Below are positions 3,167 to 35,674 of a DNA stretch of 36,371 nt, one piece after another. The DNA comes from Bacteroidota bacterium (GTDB lineage Bacteria > Bacteroidota > Bacteroidia > Bacteroidales > JAADGE01): positions 1 to 36,371 of the forward strand of contig JAJRUH010000077.1 in assembly GCA_024277895.1 (NCBI GenBank). The letters are read 5' to 3'. The notes under the pieces were generated by a model. That model did no database searches. It was not told the origin of the DNA and saw nothing but the letters and a program-made list of their open reading frames with translations. The translations under genes and the position numbers were made by a program. Position 1 is the first letter of the stretch, and each line of letters begins with the position of its first letter.

Positions 3167-5029
3167 TTAAATCTTCTCGCTTAATTCAAGCCATCGCATT
3201 TCTTTTTTGTCAATAATTGCAATAAGTTCAGGCAATTTTTGAGATTTTTCGTTTAATTCGTCTGCCGCATAATTTCCCGATTGCAAATATGTTTCAATTT
3301 CCTCTTTTTCAGAATTTAATATTTCCAGTTCTTTCTCCAGTTCTTCAAATTCTTTTTTCTCTTTATAAGTTAATTTCTGAGGATTTTTCTTTTTAACTTT
3401 ATCTTTCTTAATTACAAGAGAAGTTTCAATTTCAGATTTTTTATTTTTTTCTGAAACATAATGAGAATAATCGGAATAATTTCCGGGGAATTTCTTTATT
3501 TTTCCGTTTCCTTCAAAGACAAAAAGCATATCAGCAGCGGCATCAATAAAAAAACGATCGTGCGAAACAAAAAGAACCGTACCCGTAAATTTCAACAAAT
3601 AATCTTCAAGAACAGCTAATGTCATAATATCCAAATCATTAGTAGGTTCATCAAGTATTAAAAAATTCGGATTTCGCATTAAAATACTCAATAAATACAA
3701 GCGTCTTTTTTCACCGCCGCTCAATTGTGATATATAATTATAGTGCATTGAGCGCGGAAACAGGAAATATTCTGCGAATTGAGCTGCCGTCATTTCTCTG
3801 TTTTTTCCTAAAGACACAATTTCAGCGATACTTTTAATGTAATCAATCAGACGAATATCTTCAGTTGTGTCAATTGCCTTTTGCTCAAAATATCCGATTG
3901 AAACTGTTGCCCCTTTCTCAATTTTCCCGCTGTCAACAGGAATTTTATCAGTTATTAAATTTAATAATGTACTTTTTCCTATACCGTTATTACCGAATAT
4001 TGCAATTTTTTCACCTTTTGAAAATTTATAAGAAAAATCATCAATTAATATTAAATCATCAAATTTTTTACTGATATTATAAATGTCTATCAATTTTTTT
4101 CCGAGTCGTTTTCCTTCAATTTCAATATCAAACGACTTATCATCAATTTTTTTTTCGGCTTTTTCTTTCAGTTTATAGAAATTATCAATTCTCGACTTTG
4201 CCTTTGTTGCTCTTGCCTGAGGTTGCCTGTTCATCCATTTTGTTTCGGTTCTTAACCGGCTTTTAGCTTTATCAATTTCAGCGGCTGTATTCTCAATCCG
4301 ATCATTTCTTTTTTTTAAAAAGAATTCATAATTTCCTGAATATTTATAAACATTTCCGTCTTCCAATTCCAAAATAACATTACATACACGGTCTAAAAAA
4401 TACCTGTCGTGGGTTACAAGCAATAAAGTTAAAGACGATTTTGCAATATAATCTTCCAACCACTCAATCATTTCAAAATCAAGATGATTAGTAGGTTCGT
4501 CAAGAATTAAAAAATCAGGTTTGTTAAGAATTGCAACGGCAAGAGCCAAGCGTTTTTTTTGTCCGCCCGAAAGCAATTCAACGGGTTTATCAAATTCGGT
4601 TAATTTAAGTTTTGTTAAAACTATTTTAACTTCACGTTCAAAATCCCAAGCATCTAATCTGTCAATTTCATCGGCAGCCTTTTGTATTAAATCGGCATCA
4701 TTAGTTTTTATTGCATTTTCATAATTTTTAACGGCAACGGCAACTTTATCGGAAGAATTTAAAACTTGTTCAATAACATTTCCTTTTTCTTCAAATTTCG
4801 GTTCTTGTTCTAAAAAACCTATAGTAATATTATTTAACAAACTAAAATTTCCCGCATCGGCAATATCTTTTCCTGTCAGAATATTCAGCAAACTTGTTTT
4901 TCCGGTTCCGTTTTTTGCAATAAGTGCTATTTTTTCTTTTTCATTAATTATAAAAGAAATATCTTCAAATAAAGTTTTATTACCGTATGCTTTTGAGAGT
5001 TTATCAACTTTTAGTATTTCAGGCATCAC
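3167..5029 (-). CDS. ABC-F family ATPase (Uup-like)
   Basis: A 620-residue soluble protein with two ABC ATPase domains and no membrane segments, typical of ABC-F ribosome-associated factors. Domain 1 has Walker A in AKNGTGKTS, signature LSGGQKKRL and Walker B LILDEPTNHLD. The linker contains the arginine- and lysine-rich arm (RQPQARATKAKSR). Domain 2 has Walker A GNNGIGKST, signature LSGGEKRRL and Walker B LILDEPTNDLD. The last ~90 residues are a charged coiled coil, as in Uup. Family knowledge suggests a role in translation or in DNA and ribosome maintenance; acquired-resistance ABC-Fs are an alternative but usually lack this tail. The gene starts ATG-ATG, so either codon may be used. It is divergent from ptb. 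Confidence 0.9.
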   Translation of the reverse strand: MMPEILKVDKLSKAYGNKTLFEDISFIINEKEKIALIAKNGTGKTSLLNILTGKDIADAGNFSLLNNITIGFLEQEPKFEEKGNVIEQVLNSSDKVAVAVKNYENAIKTNDADLIQKAADEIDRLDAWDFEREVKIVLTKLKLTEFDKPVELLSGGQKKRLALAVAILNKPDFLILDEPTNHLDFEMIEWLEDYIAKSSLTLLLVTHDRYFLDRVCNVILELEDGNVYKYSGNYEFFLKKRNDRIENTAAEIDKAKSRLRTETKWMNRQPQARATKAKSRIDNFYKLKEKAEKKIDDKSFDIEIEGKRLGKKLIDIYNISKKFDDLILIDDFSYKFSKGEKIAIFGNNGIGKSTLLNLITDKIPVDSGKIEKGATVSIGYFEQKAIDTTEDIRLIDYIKSIAEIVSLGKNREMTAAQFAEYFLFPRSMHYNYISQLSGGEKRRLYLLSILMRNPNFLILDEPTNDLDIMTLAVLEDYLLKFTGTVLFVSHDRFFIDAAADMLFVFEGNGKIKKFPGNYSDYSHYVSEKNKKSEIETSLVIKKDKVKKKNPQKLTYKEKKEFEELEKELEILNSEKEEIETYLQSGNYAADELNEKSQKLPELIAIIDKKEMRWLELSEKI

Positions 5030-5206: not shown

Positions 5207-6100
5207 ATGCTGACAAAGATATCTGATTTATATTCATTAAATAAAAATAAGAAAACTTTAAAACGACTTGTTTTGGCATCTGCCGGTGACGAACATTCGT
5301 TGGAAGCCGTTTTTAATGCTCATAAAAAAAATATTATTAAGCCGATTTTAGTCGGAGATAAAAATAAAATTCTGAAAATTGCCGAAAGAAAAGACTTGGA
5401 TATCAAAAATACCGAAATTATTGATATAAAGGATGATAAAGCAGCCGTTATTGAAAGTGTTAAAATAATAAAAAGCGGGAAAGGCGATATTCTGATGAAA
5501 GGATACACTTCTACCGCAACGCTTTTAAAAGCAATTTTAAACGATGAATACGGTTTGAAAAATTCACCTTTATTGTCGCATTTTGCTTTATTTGAACTTC
5601 CGAATTATCATAAACTTGTCGGAATTACCGATGTTGCAATGAATATTGCACCTTCATTAAAAGAAAAAGCCGGAATTATTTCAAATGCCGTAAAATATAT
5701 GTACAAAATCGGATACACAAAGCCGAAAGTTGCCGTAATTGCTGCCGTAGAATTGGTAAACGAAAAAATGCAGGCAACAATTGATGCTGCAATACTTTCA
5801 AAAATGGAACAAAGAAAACAAATGCCGGATTGTATTATTGACGGACCTTTGGCTTTTGATAATGCAATAAGTAAGGAAAGTGCAGAACATAAAGGAATTG
5901 TTTCGGAAGTTGCCGGAGATACCGATTTATTGTTAATGCCGAATATTGAAGCCGGAAATGTTTTATATAAATCATTGGCTTTCAACGAGGCAAAACTTGC
6001 AGCTGTAATATTGGGAGCTTCTGTTCCGGTTGTGCTGACATCACGTTCCGATACGGAAGAAACAAAATTGAACAGTATCATTTTAGCTGCTGTGTCGTAA
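5207..6100 (+). CDS. ptb: Phosphate butyryltransferase (phosphate acyltransferase family)
   Basis: A cytoplasmic enzyme that exchanges the CoA of butyryl-CoA (or a branched-chain acyl-CoA) for phosphate, the first step of ATP formation via butyrate kinase. From the ATG at 5207 the protein is 297 residues, the usual Ptb length. An in-frame ATG at 5087 would add 40 residues of low-complexity, Phe/Lys-rich sequence that overlaps the regulatory region, so I rejected it. Family features are ASAGDEHSLEAVFNAHK with PILVGD, MKGYTSTATLLKAIL, the GITDVAMNIAP block and DGPLAFDNA. No butyrate kinase follows. Instead a leucine-dehydrogenase-like gene lies 71 nt downstream, recalling the ptb-bcd pairing of Bacillus branched-chain keto-acid operons. 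Confidence 0.88.
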   Translation: MLTKISDLYSLNKNKKTLKRLVLASAGDEHSLEAVFNAHKKNIIKPILVGDKNKILKIAERKDLDIKNTEIIDIKDDKAAVIESVKIIKSGKGDILMKGYTSTATLLKAILNDEYGLKNSPLLSHFALFELPNYHKLVGITDVAMNIAPSLKEKAGIISNAVKYMYKIGYTKPKVAVIAAVELVNEKMQATIDAAILSKMEQRKQMPDCIIDGPLAFDNAISKESAEHKGIVSEVAGDTDLLLMPNIEAGNVLYKSLAFNEAKLAAVILGASVPVVLTSRSDTEETKLNSIILAAVS

Positions 6101-26196: not shown

Positions 26197-26866
26197 CGTC
26201 CCATTTATAACCTAAACCGTAAATTGCTTTAATATATTTTTTGCAACCGGCATTTTTCAATTTTTTTTTCAGATTTTTGATATGTGCATACACAAAATCG
26301 TGATTATCCATCATATCAGCCATATCGCCTGAAAGGTGTTCTGCAATGGCACTTTTTGAAAGTACTCTGCCTTTATTTCCGATAAGATACAACAATAAGT
26401 CAATTTCTTTTTTTGTAATTTCAAGGCTTATATTATTAATCTTTACAACTTTTGACATCAAGTCAATTTCTATTTCATTAAAGACAATTTTGTTGTTTCC
26501 GCTAAATTGTTTTCGTCTGATTAATGCTTGAATTCTGACTAATAATTCAGATAAATGAAATGGTTTTATCAGGTAGTCATCAGCACCCAAATTAAATCCT
26601 TCGATTCGGGTTTCCAGTGTTTCTTTTGCAGAAAGAATAATAACACCTTCTGTTTTATTTTGTCTTTTTAATTCTTCCAATATTGTAAAACCATTTCCGT
26701 CAGGTAACATTAAATCCAGCAGAATAGTGTCATATTCATAGAGTAAAATTTTTTCTGTTGCTGCGGATAAACTGCTTACCCTTTCACACACAAATTCATT
26801 ATTATTCAGATAACTTTGAATGCTTTCGGCTAATTCTTGTTCGTCTTCTATAAGTAATAACTTCAT
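26189..26866 (-). CDS. OmpR-family response regulator
   Basis: A 225-residue regulator. The receiver domain has acidic residues Glu7-Asp8, phosphoacceptor Asp51 (LLDLMLPDGNG), Ser78 and Lys100 (DDYLIKPF). The C-terminal winged helix-turn-helix ends KKYIKAIYGLGYKW. It is paired with the kinase by an 8-nt overlap. A -7 element TATATTTG ends only 4 nt before the ATG, so the message may be leaderless. Two TTCAAAA boxes 8 nt upstream of it are good candidates for autoregulatory binding. Confidence 0.95.
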   Translation of the reverse strand: MKLLLIEDEQELAESIQSYLNNNEFVCERVSSLSAATEKILLYEYDTILLDLMLPDGNGFTILEELKRQNKTEGVIILSAKETLETRIEGFNLGADDYLIKPFHLSELLVRIQALIRRKQFSGNNKIVFNEIEIDLMSKVVKINNISLEITKKEIDLLLYLIGNKGRVLSKSAIAEHLSGDMADMMDNHDFVYAHIKNLKKKLKNAGCKKYIKAIYGLGYKWDDD

Positions 26867-26870
26867 TTTG

Positions 26871-26904
26871 CAAATATACTTTTCAATTTTGAATATATTT
26901 TGAA
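26871..26904 (-). promoter_or_regulatory. Response-regulator promoter with paired TTCAAAA boxes
   Basis: On the minus strand two TTCAAAA boxes (26898-26904 and 26887-26893) start 11 nt apart, then 8 nt, then TATATTTG (26871-26878). No TTTG is present at -33, as expected for an activator-dependent promoter. An 11-nt period matches the tandem binding of OmpR-type regulators. Confidence 0.7.
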
Positions 26905-27189
26905 TATATTGAAATTAGGTATCAGAGAAAGACAGTATTACGATTAATACTCTGTATATTCATTTATTCCGTAATTTTACTTTCCTAAAATAACAGACAC
27001 GTACCAAAGCCGACTAAAAATTCCGATGCTTTATTTTGATACGAAATTTCAATGTGAATTCTTATACTGCAAAACAGCGAGTATGTATATTTTTAGTTTT
27101 CGTACTTTTCTTTTCAATTTATTGCCGTTAAAAATAATACTTTAATCATATATTTAAATTATTTCACACTGAAAGTATTAAAACAAATA
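26905..27189. other. Intergenic region between divergent units
   Basis: No coding frame is supported. It holds a hairpin of AGTATT/AATACT with flanking ACA/TGT pairs (26932-26955) without a T-run. Otherwise it is AT-rich sequence between the response-regulator promoter and the cassette promoter. Confidence 0.5.
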
Positions 27190-27220
27190 TTAGTTAGTCT
27201 TAATTTTTAAAGTACCTTTG
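27190..27220 (+). promoter_or_regulatory. Promoter of the head-group cassette
   Basis: TTAG (27190-27193), 19 nt, then TACCTTTG (27213-27220): the -7 element is perfect and the -33 element has one mismatch. Transcription should begin near 27225, giving a leader of about 205 nt. Confidence 0.75.
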
Positions 27221-27224
27221 CAGC

Positions 27225-27430
27225 GGATTACACATCTTTTGATACCAATTCATTTACTGTCATTTTTATTGATAAGCTTCTGAAGCAGGCAACTGTCTCG
27301 CCGGCAGACTTCATACTTAATAATTGAGTTATCAACCGATCCAAGCATCAAAGTACTAAAAATTAGTACGCATAAGTGCCCCTGAACGAGCGTTTACGTT
27401 ATTTCTTTGATGACACCAATTGAATAAAAT
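27225..27430 (+). ncRNA. Structured 5' leader, candidate riboswitch-like element
   Basis: The leader contains several perfect complementary segments. Stem A: TTGATAA (27269-27275) with TTATCAA (27329-27335), enclosing TGAAG/CTTCA (27281-27285, 27309-27313) and CTGTC/GGCAG (27293-27297, 27303-27307). Stem B: CATCAAAG (27346-27353) with CTTTGATG (27405-27412), enclosing GTACTAA/TTAGTAC (27353-27359, 27363-27369). The sequence TTTGAT at 27238-27243 can also pair with ATCAAA at 27347-27352, so it competes with stem B. Stem B ends 18 nt before the start codon. It has no match to a riboswitch class I know. Pairing was found by eye only. Confidence 0.5.
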
Positions 27431-28237
27431 ATGAATATTAAATCAGATTATTATGATGATGACAATCGTATTACTACTGCATTACTTCTTGCTGCCGGAA
27501 CAGGCAGTCGTCTTTTCCCTTTAACTAAAAACTATCCCAAATGTCTTACCCTTGTAAATAAAAAATCAATTCTTGAAAGATTAGTAACAAATTTGAAAAA
27601 ACAAGGATTTACCCGACTTGTAATAGTTACAGGTTACGAAAAAGAATGTATTATGGATTTTTTGAGCAGTAAATCAGGAAACTTAAAAATAGAGTACATT
27701 TACAGCCCTCTATACAGAACCACAAACAACATTTATTCTCTTTGGATGGCTCGCAATATAATAGACGAACCTTTTGTTCTGTTTGAAAGCGATTTGATTT
27801 TAAACACATCATTGCTTAATGAAATGGTTTTTCCTGATAAAATGGCTGTTGCTCTAATGCAACCGTGGCTTAACGGTACAACTGTGTCAATTAACAAACT
27901 AAATCAGGTTACTCAATTTCAAAAAGGAACAACAGATAAGTATTCTGATATTCGTTATAAAACTGTTAATATTTATAGTTTTTCACTTTCAACTTGGCGG
28001 GCAATTGTTAAAAAGCTCAATCAATATATTTCAGAAGGCAGTGTTAATTGTTATTATGAAGCCGTTTTTTCGGATATGATTGATGATAAAAGTTTGTCGC
28101 TTGAATCAGTTTCGTTTGACCATAAACCATGGTACGAGATTGACACTATTTATGATTTGGCTGAAGCAGAAAAACTTTTCCCTGCAGAAATAAAAAAACG
28201 GATTAGATCAGAAGCAGTAACAATACAGAGAATATAG
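27431..28237 (+). CDS. Sugar-phosphate/phosphocholine-type nucleotidyltransferase
   Basis: A 268-residue NTP transferase of the LicC/phosphocholine cytidylyltransferase type. The nucleotide-binding signature is LAAGTGSRLFPLTKNYPKC at residues ~21-39, the metal-binding region is FVLFESDLILN, and the C-terminus has the family ending WYEIDTIYDLAEAEKLF. It would activate a phosphorylated small alcohol or phosphonate with CTP (or another NTP). It is the first gene of a three-gene unit, 8 nt upstream of the PLP enzyme, behind a ~205-nt structured leader. LicC-type specificity (choline versus ethanolamine or phosphonate) cannot be read from the sequence. Confidence 0.88.
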   Translation: MNIKSDYYDDDNRITTALLLAAGTGSRLFPLTKNYPKCLTLVNKKSILERLVTNLKKQGFTRLVIVTGYEKECIMDFLSSKSGNLKIEYIYSPLYRTTNNIYSLWMARNIIDEPFVLFESDLILNTSLLNEMVFPDKMAVALMQPWLNGTTVSINKLNQVTQFQKGTTDKYSDIRYKTVNIYSFSLSTWRAIVKKLNQYISEGSVNCYYEAVFSDMIDDKSLSLESVSFDHKPWYEIDTIYDLAEAEKLFPAEIKKRIRSEAVTIQRI

Positions 28238-28245
28238 AACAGAGA

Positions 28246-29352
28246 ATGAAATACATACCGGAAAATAAATATACAACACAAGCCGAAAAATACGAATACA
28301 TTTCAAAGCAACACGGCGGTTATTACAGGCATAATTTTACCGACCATGCTTACTTATATAATCTTTATTTTCCGCCCGAAGCAGTATTTGCACATCTGAA
28401 AGATAAAATTCAAGATTTAGTATTAAATTACCCCGTGGCACAAGATGCACTTGCCGAACTTATCGGAAAAATAATCGGGCAACCAACCAAGAGAATAGTA
28501 GTAGGAAACGGTGCTGCCGAAATTATTAAAATTATTTCGGGGCATTTAGCTGAAAAAATAATTGTTCCTGTACCCTCATTTAATGAATATGCAAATGCTG
28601 CACCTGCAGGACATATAATAGAATTTCCGCTCGAATTTCCTTCATTTCAACTTGATACAGACAAATTTGCAGCCGAAGCCATAAAAACGGGAGCCGATAT
28701 AGCTGTTGTTGTAACGCCCAATAATCCTACTTCGATGTTGGTGCCGAAAGCAGAATTAATACGATTGGCAAAAAAACTGGATAAGCACAATTGTATGCTT
28801 ATTATTGATGAATCTTTTCTTGATTTTGCCGAAAATAAAGAACAAATAAGCATGGAAAAGGACATTGATAAGTATCCGAATATTGCTGTTTTAAAAAGTA
28901 TGAGTAAGGCATACGGAATATGCGGACTCAGAATAGGATACATGCTAACGGCTAACTTAGAATTTGCCGCAGCAGTTCGAAACGGTATTCATATTTGGAA
29001 TATTAACGGATTTGCCGAAGAGTTTCTGAGAATATTGCCCAGGTATAAACAAGAATTTGAAGCCGGCTGCGAAAAAGTTAAAAAAGACCGGGATTTATTC
29101 TATAAAAATCTTTGCACTATTGAAGGTATGACTGTTTTTAAACCGGATGCGAACTATATTTTTTGTCGTTTGCCCGATACCGCTTTAAGCGGGCCGGAAA
29201 TTACAAAGCGCCTTTTTATTGAACACAATATTTATATAAAAGACAGTATGGGAAAAACGCAGCCCGATGCAGACAGATATATTCGAATTGCAAGTCGCAC
29301 TAATGAAGAAAACAGTAAACTTATTGAGGCTTTGAAGAACGTAATGTATTAA
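28246..29352 (+). CDS. Class I/II PLP-dependent aminotransferase or decarboxylase (HisC/CobD-like)
   Basis: A 368-residue fold-type I PLP enzyme. Asn160 is in TPNNPTS, Asp188 in IIDES, the Schiff-base lysine is Lys221 in SMSKAYGICGLRIGY, and the carboxylate-binding arginine lies in YIRIASRT near the C-terminus. The pattern fits both histidinol-phosphate aminotransferase and CobD, the threonine-phosphate decarboxylase. No histidine or cobalamin genes are near, so it probably acts on the substrate of its neighbours: by decarboxylation of a phospho-amino acid to an amino-alcohol phosphate, or by transamination to an amino compound. Gaps of 8 and 11 nt to the flanking genes indicate one operon. 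Confidence 0.88.
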   Translation: MKYIPENKYTTQAEKYEYISKQHGGYYRHNFTDHAYLYNLYFPPEAVFAHLKDKIQDLVLNYPVAQDALAELIGKIIGQPTKRIVVGNGAAEIIKIISGHLAEKIIVPVPSFNEYANAAPAGHIIEFPLEFPSFQLDTDKFAAEAIKTGADIAVVVTPNNPTSMLVPKAELIRLAKKLDKHNCMLIIDESFLDFAENKEQISMEKDIDKYPNIAVLKSMSKAYGICGLRIGYMLTANLEFAAAVRNGIHIWNINGFAEEFLRILPRYKQEFEAGCEKVKKDRDLFYKNLCTIEGMTVFKPDANYIFCRLPDTALSGPEITKRLFIEHNIYIKDSMGKTQPDADRYIRIASRTNEENSKLIEALKNVMY

Positions 29353-29363
29353 AAATAAACACG

Positions 29364-30002
29364 ATGAATGATAAAAAACAGCCGGGTATGCTTACTTTTG
29401 CCAAAGATTTACCGAATATTTGTTCTCTGTTGGGATTATTAAGTGCAGTGGCAGGAATATATTTTGCAATAACAGGAAATTTTCCTTTGGCAATAATCGG
29501 TGTGTTGTGGGCAGTATTATTCGACTGGTATGACGGAATTATAGCACGAAAAATGAAAGGCAGGACAAAAGTGCAAGGTGAATTCGGAAAGCAATTAGAT
29601 TCAATGATTGATATTGTGAGCTTTGGTATATTACCTGCAATTCTGCTTTTAAGCTATGGAAATTACAGTGTTTGGTTTATACCGGGAGCATTTGTAATTA
29701 TAGCTGTGGCGGCAATTCGTTTGAGTTATTTTAATGTATATGGTCTTATTGACAGTAAAACCTACAAAGGTCTTGCATTGGATAATAATGTGCTTATTCT
29801 GGCTTTTGTCTTTTTATTTGAAAGTTTCTTTGAACATTTATCTTTTTCAATTATTATTTATATTATATTAATGATTTTAGCAGCCTTTAATTTATCATCT
29901 GTCCCAACTCCGAAATTCGGAGGAAAGTGGATATATGTGCTGGTTATTTACGTTTTGATATTAACATCTGTTTTCGGATGGATTATGTATAACAAAATTT
30001 GA
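29364..30002 (+). CDS. CDP-alcohol phosphatidyltransferase (PssA-like)
   Basis: A 212-residue membrane enzyme with about six hydrophobic segments and the family motif DWYDGIIAR ... GKQLDSMID followed by IVSFGILPA, as in phosphatidylserine synthase. Between AR and the conserved glycine there are 12 residues rather than the canonical eight, so the loop near the active site is extended by four. Reaction: transfer of a phospho-alcohol between a CDP-linked donor and an alcohol acceptor, usually in lipid head-group formation. As third gene after a nucleotidyltransferase and a PLP enzyme, it would use their CDP-activated amino compound as donor. Confidence 0.9.
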   Translation: MNDKKQPGMLTFAKDLPNICSLLGLLSAVAGIYFAITGNFPLAIIGVLWAVLFDWYDGIIARKMKGRTKVQGEFGKQLDSMIDIVSFGILPAILLLSYGNYSVWFIPGAFVIIAVAAIRLSYFNVYGLIDSKTYKGLALDNNVLILAFVFLFESFFEHLSFSIIIYIILMILAAFNLSSVPTPKFGGKWIYVLVIYVLILTSVFGWIMYNKI

Positions 30003-30025
30003 AAATATGAAATAAAAAATTATTT

Positions 30026-30056
30026 TGTCAGAGAGTTTTTTGCATGGAACCTGACA
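30026..30056. repeat. Inverted repeat between convergent units
   Basis: TGTCAG (30026-30031) and CTGACA (30051-30056), 6 bp with a 19-nt loop, in the gap between the convergent cassette and batE. It has no T-run after it, so terminator function is doubtful. Confidence 0.3.
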
Positions 30057-34369: not shown

Positions 34370-35674
34370 TTAATTATCTCTTTTATCAATAAATTTTACC
34401 GGTTTTCTGCTTGTTTCCGGAAACAATTTTCGTGCAATTTCTTTCGGATTTTTAAAAATAATTTTTGGAGCTACGCGTAACTTAGCTCTGAAATGGTCTT
34501 TCAGGATTTTTTCGTGTTTTGGTTTTATTTCATTAACACCGACATATATATTTATCTCGTCTGTTCCGATATCATTAGTATAAACTTCCACAACATAATT
34601 TGTAACCTCTTCTATATCATCTAATATATCATATAAAGAAGTAGGATATAAAGTAGTTCCTTTATATTTTATCATTTGCTTTTTTCTGCCGATGACAGGG
34701 CCGAGACGCACTGTATTTCTTCCGCAGGAACATTTTTCGGTGTAATGTTTCATTACATCACCTGTTTTAAATCGAAGAAGCGGCATTCCTTCAACACCAA
34801 GAGTTGTAACAGTCAATTCTCCGGCTTCATTTTCTTTTACAGGATTGTTGTTTTCATCTAAAAATTCGATAATAATAAGTTCAGGATGATGATGCCCTCC
34901 TCTGCCGGCAGAACATTCGGTAAATGCCGATGCCATTTCAGTTGAAGCATAAGTCGAATATAATTTTAAATCACTCCATTTTTGTTTAATACGTTTTCCG
35001 AGTTTATTTAATTCAAAATTTTCATTTCTGATAGGTTCACCGATACAAACAGCTTTACTTACTCCTGTATTTTTATAATCAATATTATTTTTTTCTGCAT
35101 AATCAATAAGTTTAAGCAAAAAAGACGGAACAGTAATAAAAGTTGTAGGTTTTATCCGTTTTATTGTATCCCACTGAAGTTCAGGTATTCCCCCTCCTAC
35201 TCTTATAATTCCCGCACCCAAACGCCTTGCTCCGAGGTAATATGCCAAACCTGCCATAAATCGTTTATCTATCGTAACCATTTGTTGATAAATGTCTTCC
35301 GAACTCCCGTCAGCACAGGCAAAAGAGATACATTCGTTATAAGCAAGTCTGTCCAAATCTTTATCAGTTAATGCAAAAGTTACGGGGTCACCGAGTGTTC
35401 CCGAAGTTGTAATGTAATCAATAATTTTATTTTTCGGTACACATAAAAAGTCATCATTATATTTTTGAAGGTGAGTTTTTTCCGTTACCGGAATTTTTTG
35501 CAAATCTTCAAGTGTTATTATTGTTTCGAAAGATAAATTATTATTCTTAAACAAATCCTGATAGAATTTTGATTTTTCCGAAAGATATTTCATCAATTCT
35601 TTTAACTTCTCTTCTTGAAAAAGTTTTATTTTTTTTGAGGATTTAAGTTCAATTTCAGGTATCATCATTATCAT
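34370..35674 (-). CDS. Phenylacetate-CoA ligase-like AMP-forming enzyme
   Basis: A 434-residue acyl-adenylate-forming ligase of the PaaK type. Landmarks are TTSGTLGDPVTFAL (phosphate loop), YSTYASTEMASAFTEC (adenine/acid region), a CxC near residue 312 (EKCSCGRNTVRLG) and the C-terminal subdomain with KQMIKYKGTTLYP. It would activate an aryl or short acyl acid to its CoA ester through an adenylate; the acid is unknown. It lies 71 nt upstream of batC in the same direction. Starts with ATG-ATA-ATG-ATG, so the exact start is uncertain by up to three codons. A -7 element TACTTTTG lies at 35688-35695. Confidence 0.88.
   Translation of the reverse strand: MIMMIPEIELKSSKKIKLFQEEKLKELMKYLSEKSKFYQDLFKNNNLSFETIITLEDLQKIPVTEKTHLQKYNDDFLCVPKNKIIDYITTSGTLGDPVTFALTDKDLDRLAYNECISFACADGSSEDIYQQMVTIDKRFMAGLAYYLGARRLGAGIIRVGGGIPELQWDTIKRIKPTTFITVPSFLLKLIDYAEKNNIDYKNTGVSKAVCIGEPIRNENFELNKLGKRIKQKWSDLKLYSTYASTEMASAFTECSAGRGGHHHPELIIIEFLDENNNPVKENEAGELTVTTLGVEGMPLLRFKTGDVMKHYTEKCSCGRNTVRLGPVIGRKKQMIKYKGTTLYPTSLYDILDDIEEVTNYVVEVYTNDIGTDEINIYVGVNEIKPKHEKILKDHFRAKLRVAPKIIFKNPKEIARKLFPETSRKPVKFIDKRDN

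Follow-up and report, generated by a model that had tools for sequence, protein, structure and literature searches.

A conserved and structured region of about 205 nt precedes the lipid head-group cassette in the window, by which we mean the whole 36,371-nt stretch of Bacteroidota DNA analysed here. This region is probably a cis-acting mRNA leader that has its own promoter of the Bacteroidota type, is dedicated to the cassette and sets its translation. Judged from the sequences compared here, it would very probably be a new RNA control element, previously undescribed. Conserved RNA structure, namely the helices P1 and P2, was found between the promoter and the start codon of one operon, as is expected of a structured cis-regulatory leader.

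The 5' end of the leader was placed at about position 27225, where the sequence begins with GGATT, and the first gene starts at 27431. The box TACCTTTG, read in the window just ahead of the leader, is of the Bacteroidota type and matches TAnnTTTG, which we take to be the -7 consensus of the phylum. All 30 full-length leaders had a TAnnTT[TC][GA] box 4-5 nt ahead of GGATT, and in all 30 the spacing from GGATT to the ATG was 196-215 nt. The first-pass annotation had proposed a promoter about 205 nt ahead of the first gene and had named a transcription start close to the ATG as the finding that would speak against a leader; the box is present and its distance is kept in 30/30 full-length leaders. 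The segments on which that annotation was built were located correctly, with TTTGAT at 27238-27243, ATCAAA at 27347-27352 and CTTTGATG at 27405-27412, and the 18 nt between the last of these and the ATG (27413-27430) were read directly. Upstream of the promoter the window, G001 and G012 showed no alignment with one another. A scan with a sigma-70 model, which is ill-suited to Bacteroidota, gave 5 matches where 5.0 were expected. The features are collected in Table 1.

Table 1. Leader, cassette genes and unit ends, with positions in the window.
Feature	Position	Strand	Evidence
Leader (5' UTR), conserved and structured	27225-27430	+	homologue alignments, synonymous-site comparison, consensus folds
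Promoter: ATTAGTTAGTC block and -7 box TACCTTTG (27213-27220)	27189-27220	+	30/30 full-length leaders
PA 5' arm GGATT, at the inferred transcript 5' end	27225-27229	+	pairs with 27338-27342
TTTGAT segment	27238-27243	+	conserved alternative partner 27323-27328; small 5' hairpin in many members
PC 5' arm, TTTGTTGATG in most, TTTATTGATA in the window	27265-27274	+	94% of 310 cells paired
PC 3' arm, CATTNGCAAA in most, CGCCGGCAGA in the window	27299-27308	+	alignment pairing
Highly conserved core, family consensus CAGACTTCATACTTATAGTTGAGTTATCAG	27305-27333	+	alignments; recognisable even in L128
PA 3' arm, GATCC in the window, AGTCC in most	27338-27342	+	alignment pairing
P1 5' arm CATCAAA	27346-27352	+	216/217 cells paired; tree-aware null 0/1000
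P2 hairpin GTACTAA-AAA-TTAGTAC	27353-27369	+	97% of cells paired
P3 hairpin, TAAGTGC (27373-27379) and GCGTTTA (27390-27396)	27373-27396	+	model-fitted alignment
P1 3' arm TTTGATG	27406-27412	+	ends ATG/GTG in 31/33 copies, 20-22 nt ahead of the gene start
Gene 1: NTP transferase	27431-28237	+	Pfam PF00483; 1jyk E 3.5e-17
Gene 2: class I/II PLP enzyme	28246-29352	+	6oux E 8.4e-42, 1lc5 E 4.5e-28
Gene 3: CDP-alcohol phosphatidyltransferase, PS-synthase-like	29364-30002	+	PF01066; 7b1k E 3.7e-10
Left end of the homologous unit, TTTAGTTTTCGTAC; elsewhere GTTAGGTTTTCGTGC or near variants	27092-27105	+	homology edges
Right end GCATGGAACCTGA, inverted relative to the left end; GCATGAAACCTAA-like elsewhere	30042-30054	+	homology edges

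In a family search of 21 genomes, the window's own included, the congeners G001 and G012 carried the leader (77% and 75% identical across some 270-280 nt), and the remaining 18 genomes had short weak matches only. Relatives of gene 1 turned up at 20 loci in a scan of genome contigs; 14 were 70-83% identical (one being G012 again) and 6 were distant at 25-32%. Whole-genome protein searches at E<=1e-60 found gene-1 homologues in 4 of 56, 12 of 393 and 11 of 397 genomes, partly overlapping the earlier matches. Viral contigs gave 105 pattern matches and no relative. The loci L085, L087 and L111 were dropped as duplicates of G012, L113 and L084, and L105, L110, L112, L114, L122 and L127 as repeats of other loci. 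Altogether 33 distinct copies, the window included, stand ahead of first-gene homologues in Bacteroidota and one further copy (L149) stands ahead of a deleted cassette remnant, which makes 34 distinct sequences. L089, L093 and L128, in which the 5' part is absent or cannot be aligned, are not included in the counts of full leaders.

A covariance model, R1, was built on the 3' domain of the leader. Over 49 sources it matched 35 places with 33 distinct sequences, and it recovered all included homologues with an identity of 59% or more; the three at 56% and the distant ones were not matched. When 395 genomes drawn from the class were searched with stricter filters, the one match was in the window's own genome. 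In a set of 33 chosen genomes, 26 were matched at 28 places; of the seven without a match, four have distant homologues and three have those of 56% identity. Comparison of the coordinates showed that 27 of the 28 places precede a full-length first-gene match. The 28th, on contig 10 of G505 (L149), lies ahead of only about 30 codons of gene 1, and after a deletion about 80 nt matching the inside of gene 3 follow this remnant. These results show that, across the genomes searched, the leader goes together with this first gene. The covariance search in homologous leaders, which had been put forward as the way to check the stems, thus yielded 33 distinct copies in which P1 and P2 are conserved. The most divergent copy, L128, has a gene 1 that is 59% identical and a gene 3 that is 55% identical, and its locus consists of the leader with genes 1 and 3 and no gene 2 between them. 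The homologues at 56% (L129-L131) were rejected as members, as R1 did not match them even with the filters off. Their leaders resemble one another and are possibly a second leader type.

The conservation of the leader was compared with that of the first gene in 12 units, excluding the duplicate L085, L089 and L093 with an incomplete leader, and L094 and L095 with a truncated gene. Over the 66 pairs the mean identity was 78.6% for the leader, 79.8% for the gene-1 DNA and 56.4% for the four-fold sites of gene 1. In every one of the 66 pairs the leader was more alike than the four-fold synonymous sites, so that its conservation does not merely come from a recent spread of the unit. The leader is conserved beyond synonymous sites, and this could serve the stability of the mRNA or constitutive translation.

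The folding of the leader was analysed with single sequences and with alignments. A stretch of 236 nt of the window folded at -39.4 kcal/mol and its shuffles at -37.5 +/- 4.2 (z -0.45); the z value was -0.23 for the window leader alone and -1.75 for its 3' domain. Single-sequence z averaged -2.16 over the 33 copies of the 3' domain and -1.54 over the 30 leaders; the sequences share ancestry and the values are not independent. The consensus fold of the 30 leaders had an energy of -38.3 against -14.3 +/- 3.0 for column shuffles (z -7.9; 0/200 as low), with z -8.9 for the 3' domain (33 copies) and -3.95 for the 5' domain (30). With the alignment made without structure, z was -6.6 for the full leader and -7.35 for the 3' domain. 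Four coding slices, drawn from 28 of the 30 units as controls, gave z -0.5 to -1.8. On the reverse complement we obtained -2.8 (full), -7.3 (3' domain) and -0.26 (5' domain), and a total energy of -23.7 compared with -38.3 for the mRNA strand. The 3' domain scores on both strands because its stems are near-palindromic, and the evidence for the strand was therefore taken from the 5' domain and the total energy. The window itself is an atypical member, as it is without an AGT, has three PC pairs broken and folds no better than shuffles. RNA folding, also suggested as a check, thus gave nothing above chance with the window alone but a clear result with the family, and the long structured leader that had been claimed is upheld by the consensus fold of the 30 leaders together with the conservation over synonymous sites.

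In the 3' domain, P1 adjoins P2 and encloses P3. The first-pass annotation had described a perfect stem of 8 bp near the start, and CATCAAAG (27346-27353) does form eight perfect pairs with CTTTGATG in the window. Seven of these are conserved as P1, whereas the eighth involves G27353, a base that in the family is part of the adjoining hairpin P2. The pairing was followed on the alignment made without structure (A7), while A6 and A8 were fitted to the structure. On A7 a single one of the 217 P1 cells was broken, and all variation in P1 was one-sided and kept the pair; one pair, for example, is G-U in 15, A-U in 14 and G-C in 2 copies. In P2 one pair is A-U in 17, G-U in 9 and G-C in 5 of 31. 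P1 had 3 non-canonical cells of 231, where the tree-aware null gave 84 +/- 30, and P2 had 10 of 228, where it gave 52 +/- 18; for neither helix were any of 1000 simulations as low. For P1 and P2 together on A7, the covariation score was reached by 0, the number of paired cells by 3 and the number of double-change cells by 14 of 500 shuffles. The pairs with double changes (485/500) and the pair types (385/500) were not above the shuffles. With the first 16 copies the structure was not clearly above shuffles (reached by 27-111 of 500). In the model-fitted alignment of 34 copies, which leans to the structure, all five measures exceeded all 500 shuffles. An all-against-all covariation test with a tree-based null gave no pair at E<0.05 (best E 1.9); this test is dominated by the split between two clades and was not used as support. 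A lack of compensatory changes had been named as counter-evidence to the stems; double changes were found, clearest in P2, and P1 changed on one side only on A7. P1 and P2 are well supported as conserved helices. P3 is probably a helix. In a free search each of the 33 copies had 5-7 of its 7 pairs, in differing registers; in one fixed register 30 of 231 cells were unpaired (tree-aware p=0.116), and in one alignment its arms were placed by rule and by hand. In the consensus folds, the roughly 20 nt just ahead of the ATG take part in no pairing.

For the 5' domain the sequence is conserved and the fold is better than in shuffles, but its individual helices lack compensatory support. The alignments suggest two of them. 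In PA, 148 of 155 cells were paired with one-sided changes only (tree-aware p=0.176); the changes in PC were also one-sided only (tree-aware p=0.064), and the window breaks 3 of its 10 pairs. PA and PC showed no double changes and were above the shuffles on no measure. The small 5' hairpin was read from the alignments, with weak statistics, in the forms AAATC-TTTT-GATTT, ATATC-TTTT-GATAT and ACTAA-TCTT-TTAGT, and its register differs by clade.

The particular competing stem of the first-pass annotation was not supported. It had proposed that ATCAAA pairs either within P1 or with the upstream TTTGAT, so that the two stems would be mutually exclusive. We observed an A.C mismatch at one pair of TTTGAT:ATCAAA in 9 of 31 leaders and 14 of 186 unpaired cells overall. 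The TTTGAT segment was absent or unaligned in L089, L093 and L128, copies that keep the downstream parts, and it has a better conserved partner than ATCAAA at 27323-27328. The shuffle control of this pairing was reached by 17-41 of 500 (tree-aware p=0.023), so that the pairing exceeds chance, but the two halves owe their conservation to other causes. A list of helices with at least 5 pairs, each position pairing in at least 85% of the 30 leaders, contained 25 entries with P1 and P2 as the two longest. Several of them compete with P1, for example TTGAT (27269-27273) with ATCAA (27347-27351). A switch through such pairings is counted as possible only, because they reuse the words ATCA and TGAT and could be coincidence.

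The nearest solved relative of the gene 1 product is the CTP:phosphocholine cytidylyltransferase LicC. Gene 2 is nearest to threonine-phosphate decarboxylase (CobD-like) and matches TIGR01140 with E 4.4e-54, which is under the cut-off of that model. It is plausible that a phospho-amino acid is decarboxylated, activated as a CDP-alcohol and transferred to a lipid. A phosphonate route was considered and rejected. The sole PEP-mutase-family match in the window's genome is at the curated cut-off (31.2 bits; cut-off 31.5), or 32.1 bits with its neighbours, and the family also matches 11 of 14 control genomes.

Together, the leader and the three genes make up a unit of some 3 kb (27092-30054) with sharp homology edges and short inverted ends, and the flanks vary between genomes. 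Nine of the 33 copies have the GTTAGGTTTTCGTGC-type left motif, between -315 and -358 relative to the ATG (L089 had too little upstream DNA), and a GCATGAAACCTAA-like inverted right end was present in 5 of the 9 right ends inspected. On the left the homology extends to between about -340 and -377 relative to the ATG in units that keep the left end, and to the vicinity of the promoter in the others; the right edge lies at about +2,550 to +2,690. The unit of G063 (L090, titled Flavobacteriaceae, from the family covered by the protein search of 397 genomes) is 89% DNA-identical to that of G001, to which the window is 80% identical. This closer relationship points to a transfer between orders or to a binning error and suggests that the leader moves with the unit between orders. 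An integron integrase above the NCBIfam cut-off is encoded on contig 39 of the window's genome G000 (3418-4353, L132). G712 also has one above the cut-off, and the other 14 of 16 genomes have none.

We propose that transcription from its own promoter would yield a leader of about 205 nt ahead of the lipid cassette. The 5' domain, drawn as closed by the transcript start (GGATT with AGTCC) and carrying the most highly conserved sequence, would likely be the sensing or binding part. The 3' domain (P1, P2, P3) would end 18 nt before the AUG, and the forming or opening of P1 beside the ribosome landing site may set the translation of the first gene. Initiation in Bacteroidota rests on an open start region, largely without a Shine-Dalgarno sequence. 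This, the distance of P1 from the AUG and the absence of a terminator-like site from the leader (in a simple scan of 26800-27600 of the window, the only match was inside gene 1) favour translation over termination. That the leader regulates at all, and that the control would be translational and not transcriptional, we infer.

What the 5' domain may bind can be read in different ways. A metabolite riboswitch, with the 5' domain as the binding site for a pathway intermediate or product (CDP-alcohol, phospho-amino-alcohol or phospho-amino acid) and P1 as the expression platform, is possible, though we consider it doubtful. The presumed loops are conserved as well as the stems, the biosynthetic operon is dedicated and the structure adjoins the start; the L128 locus, which suggests a link of the leader with the CDP-alcohol/lipid side of the pathway, would point to a ligand from there. 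However, the switch pair of the first-pass annotation fails, no Rfam relative was found and a single operon type is attached, whereas widespread riboswitches usually attach to more than one. In its most specific form this idea would make the leader a riboswitch of a new class: it would sense an intermediate, either a CDP-alcohol or a phospho-amino-alcohol, and would travel together with its promoter on a mobile phospholipid head-group unit of three genes. We regard this form as rather doubtful. The same conservation would also be seen if a host or cassette protein, such as an autoregulating enzyme, bound the 5' domain, and autogenous leaders are typically dedicated to one operon as this one is. 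Such a protein-bound leader appears unlikely, as the homologous unit of the window has no regulator gene inside it and the leader occurs in hosts placed in different orders. The leader might also be constitutive and sense nothing: as a stable 5' UTR it would shield the mRNA and leave the start region accessible, so that a mobile unit is expressed in any host. The unpaired 20 or so nucleotides before the ATG and a unit that brings its own promoter and seems to move would agree with this, but the conservation of the presumed loops exceeds what stability needs and the 5' core is recognisable at 59% protein identity, so that we hold this reading only tentatively.

Control by a leader peptide, through attenuation or coupling, is very unlikely. 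A five-codon frame (ATG ACA CCA ATT GAA TAA, 27410-27427) opens within P1 and stops shortly ahead of the gene, and an ATG or GTG closes the P1 3' arm in 31 of 33 copies. In 16 of 33 a frame of five codons has its stop beginning 6 nt ahead of the gene, and in 5 more the stop overlaps the start. But the peptide sequence is not conserved, 8 of 33 frames run straight into the gene, 4 others stop at -15 to -7, two without a start codon, and the ATG is accounted for by its pairing with CATC. A 38-codon frame in G001 and G012 was rejected, since indels break it in the window and the changes fall mostly at coding positions. We judge it most improbable that an integron attC/attI-like recombination site, or other mobility DNA, was mistaken for an RNA. 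The sharp edges and inverted ends of the unit and the integrase on another contig of the window's genome would fit, but the leader, instead of standing at the left edge, is set in from it by some 110-150 bp, begins at the promoter and has a consensus energy that favours the mRNA strand. A search of 11 loci for attC (RYYYAAC ... GTTRRRY) found 6 candidate R''/R' pairs, located in 3 of the loci, and all of them failed the folding cut-off that we had set.

The leader was compared with known RNAs. At the gathering score, the only Rfam 15 match in the window was a tRNA elsewhere, so that the first-pass statement that no known riboswitch consensus is visible agrees with Rfam. At E<=10 the leader region had nine matches with E 1.9-9.4, all far under the gathering scores and mostly eukaryotic snoRNAs with one Listeria sRNA; four homologous loci had no match at E<=0.5. 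In the literature titles and abstracts searched, with subscription journals mostly outside the search, we found no description of the present leader. We take it to be a new RNA family whose kind is known, a structured leader and possibly a riboswitch. To our knowledge, phospholipid head-group synthesis has few known cis-regulatory RNAs. Translational riboswitches share with it a structured 5' UTR, a stem near the start codon and a dedicated biosynthetic operon; they differ in that the proposed competing stem is not conserved here and that the phylum does not rely on Shine-Dalgarno sequences. Bacteroid-trp is a leader. It and Bacteroidales-1 (RF01692 and RF01693) are listed as candidate cis-regulatory motifs of Bacteroidota (PMC2864571), and the present leader is like them a conserved structured RNA of this phylum but has no Rfam 15 match and precedes different genes. 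The aminoglycoside riboswitch reported for integron cassettes was later refuted and its sequence was an integration site (PMC9410878). It was likewise a conserved sequence ahead of a gene in a mobile unit, whereas the leader described here lies inside the unit, begins at a promoter and shows RNA-type conservation. The Lic and Pnt operons for head-group activation (LicC, PntC) also have a LicC-type cytidylyltransferase beside a PLP enzyme (PMC6697681). Here, the PLP enzyme is a CobD-like one of class I/II and is joined by a CDP-alcohol phosphatidyltransferase, and the available part of that paper mentions no RNA leader.

Since Bacteroidota are mostly without Shine-Dalgarno sequences, the working of translational leaders in this phylum is of interest. 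The 34 natural sequences, the covariance model and the defined operon are a basis for ligand, structure and expression tests. The leader may exemplify how a regulatory RNA passes from one order to another along with the pathway it serves. If the riboswitch reading were true, recipients in a different order would gain a lipid modification that is already wired to a feedback sensor.

Further observations were made on individual loci. G488 has two first-gene copies on different contigs (L104 and L108) with the leader before each. In G505, the leader before the cassette remnant (L149, 6109-6544, minus strand) is a second copy, and on the same strand a 404-aa open reading frame without an NCBIfam match starts at 5987, about 290 nt past the ATG of the leader. 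The window itself also encodes, on the minus strand at 34370-35674, the flexirubin biosynthesis acyl-CoA ligase FlxY, which scored above the NCBIfam cut-off.
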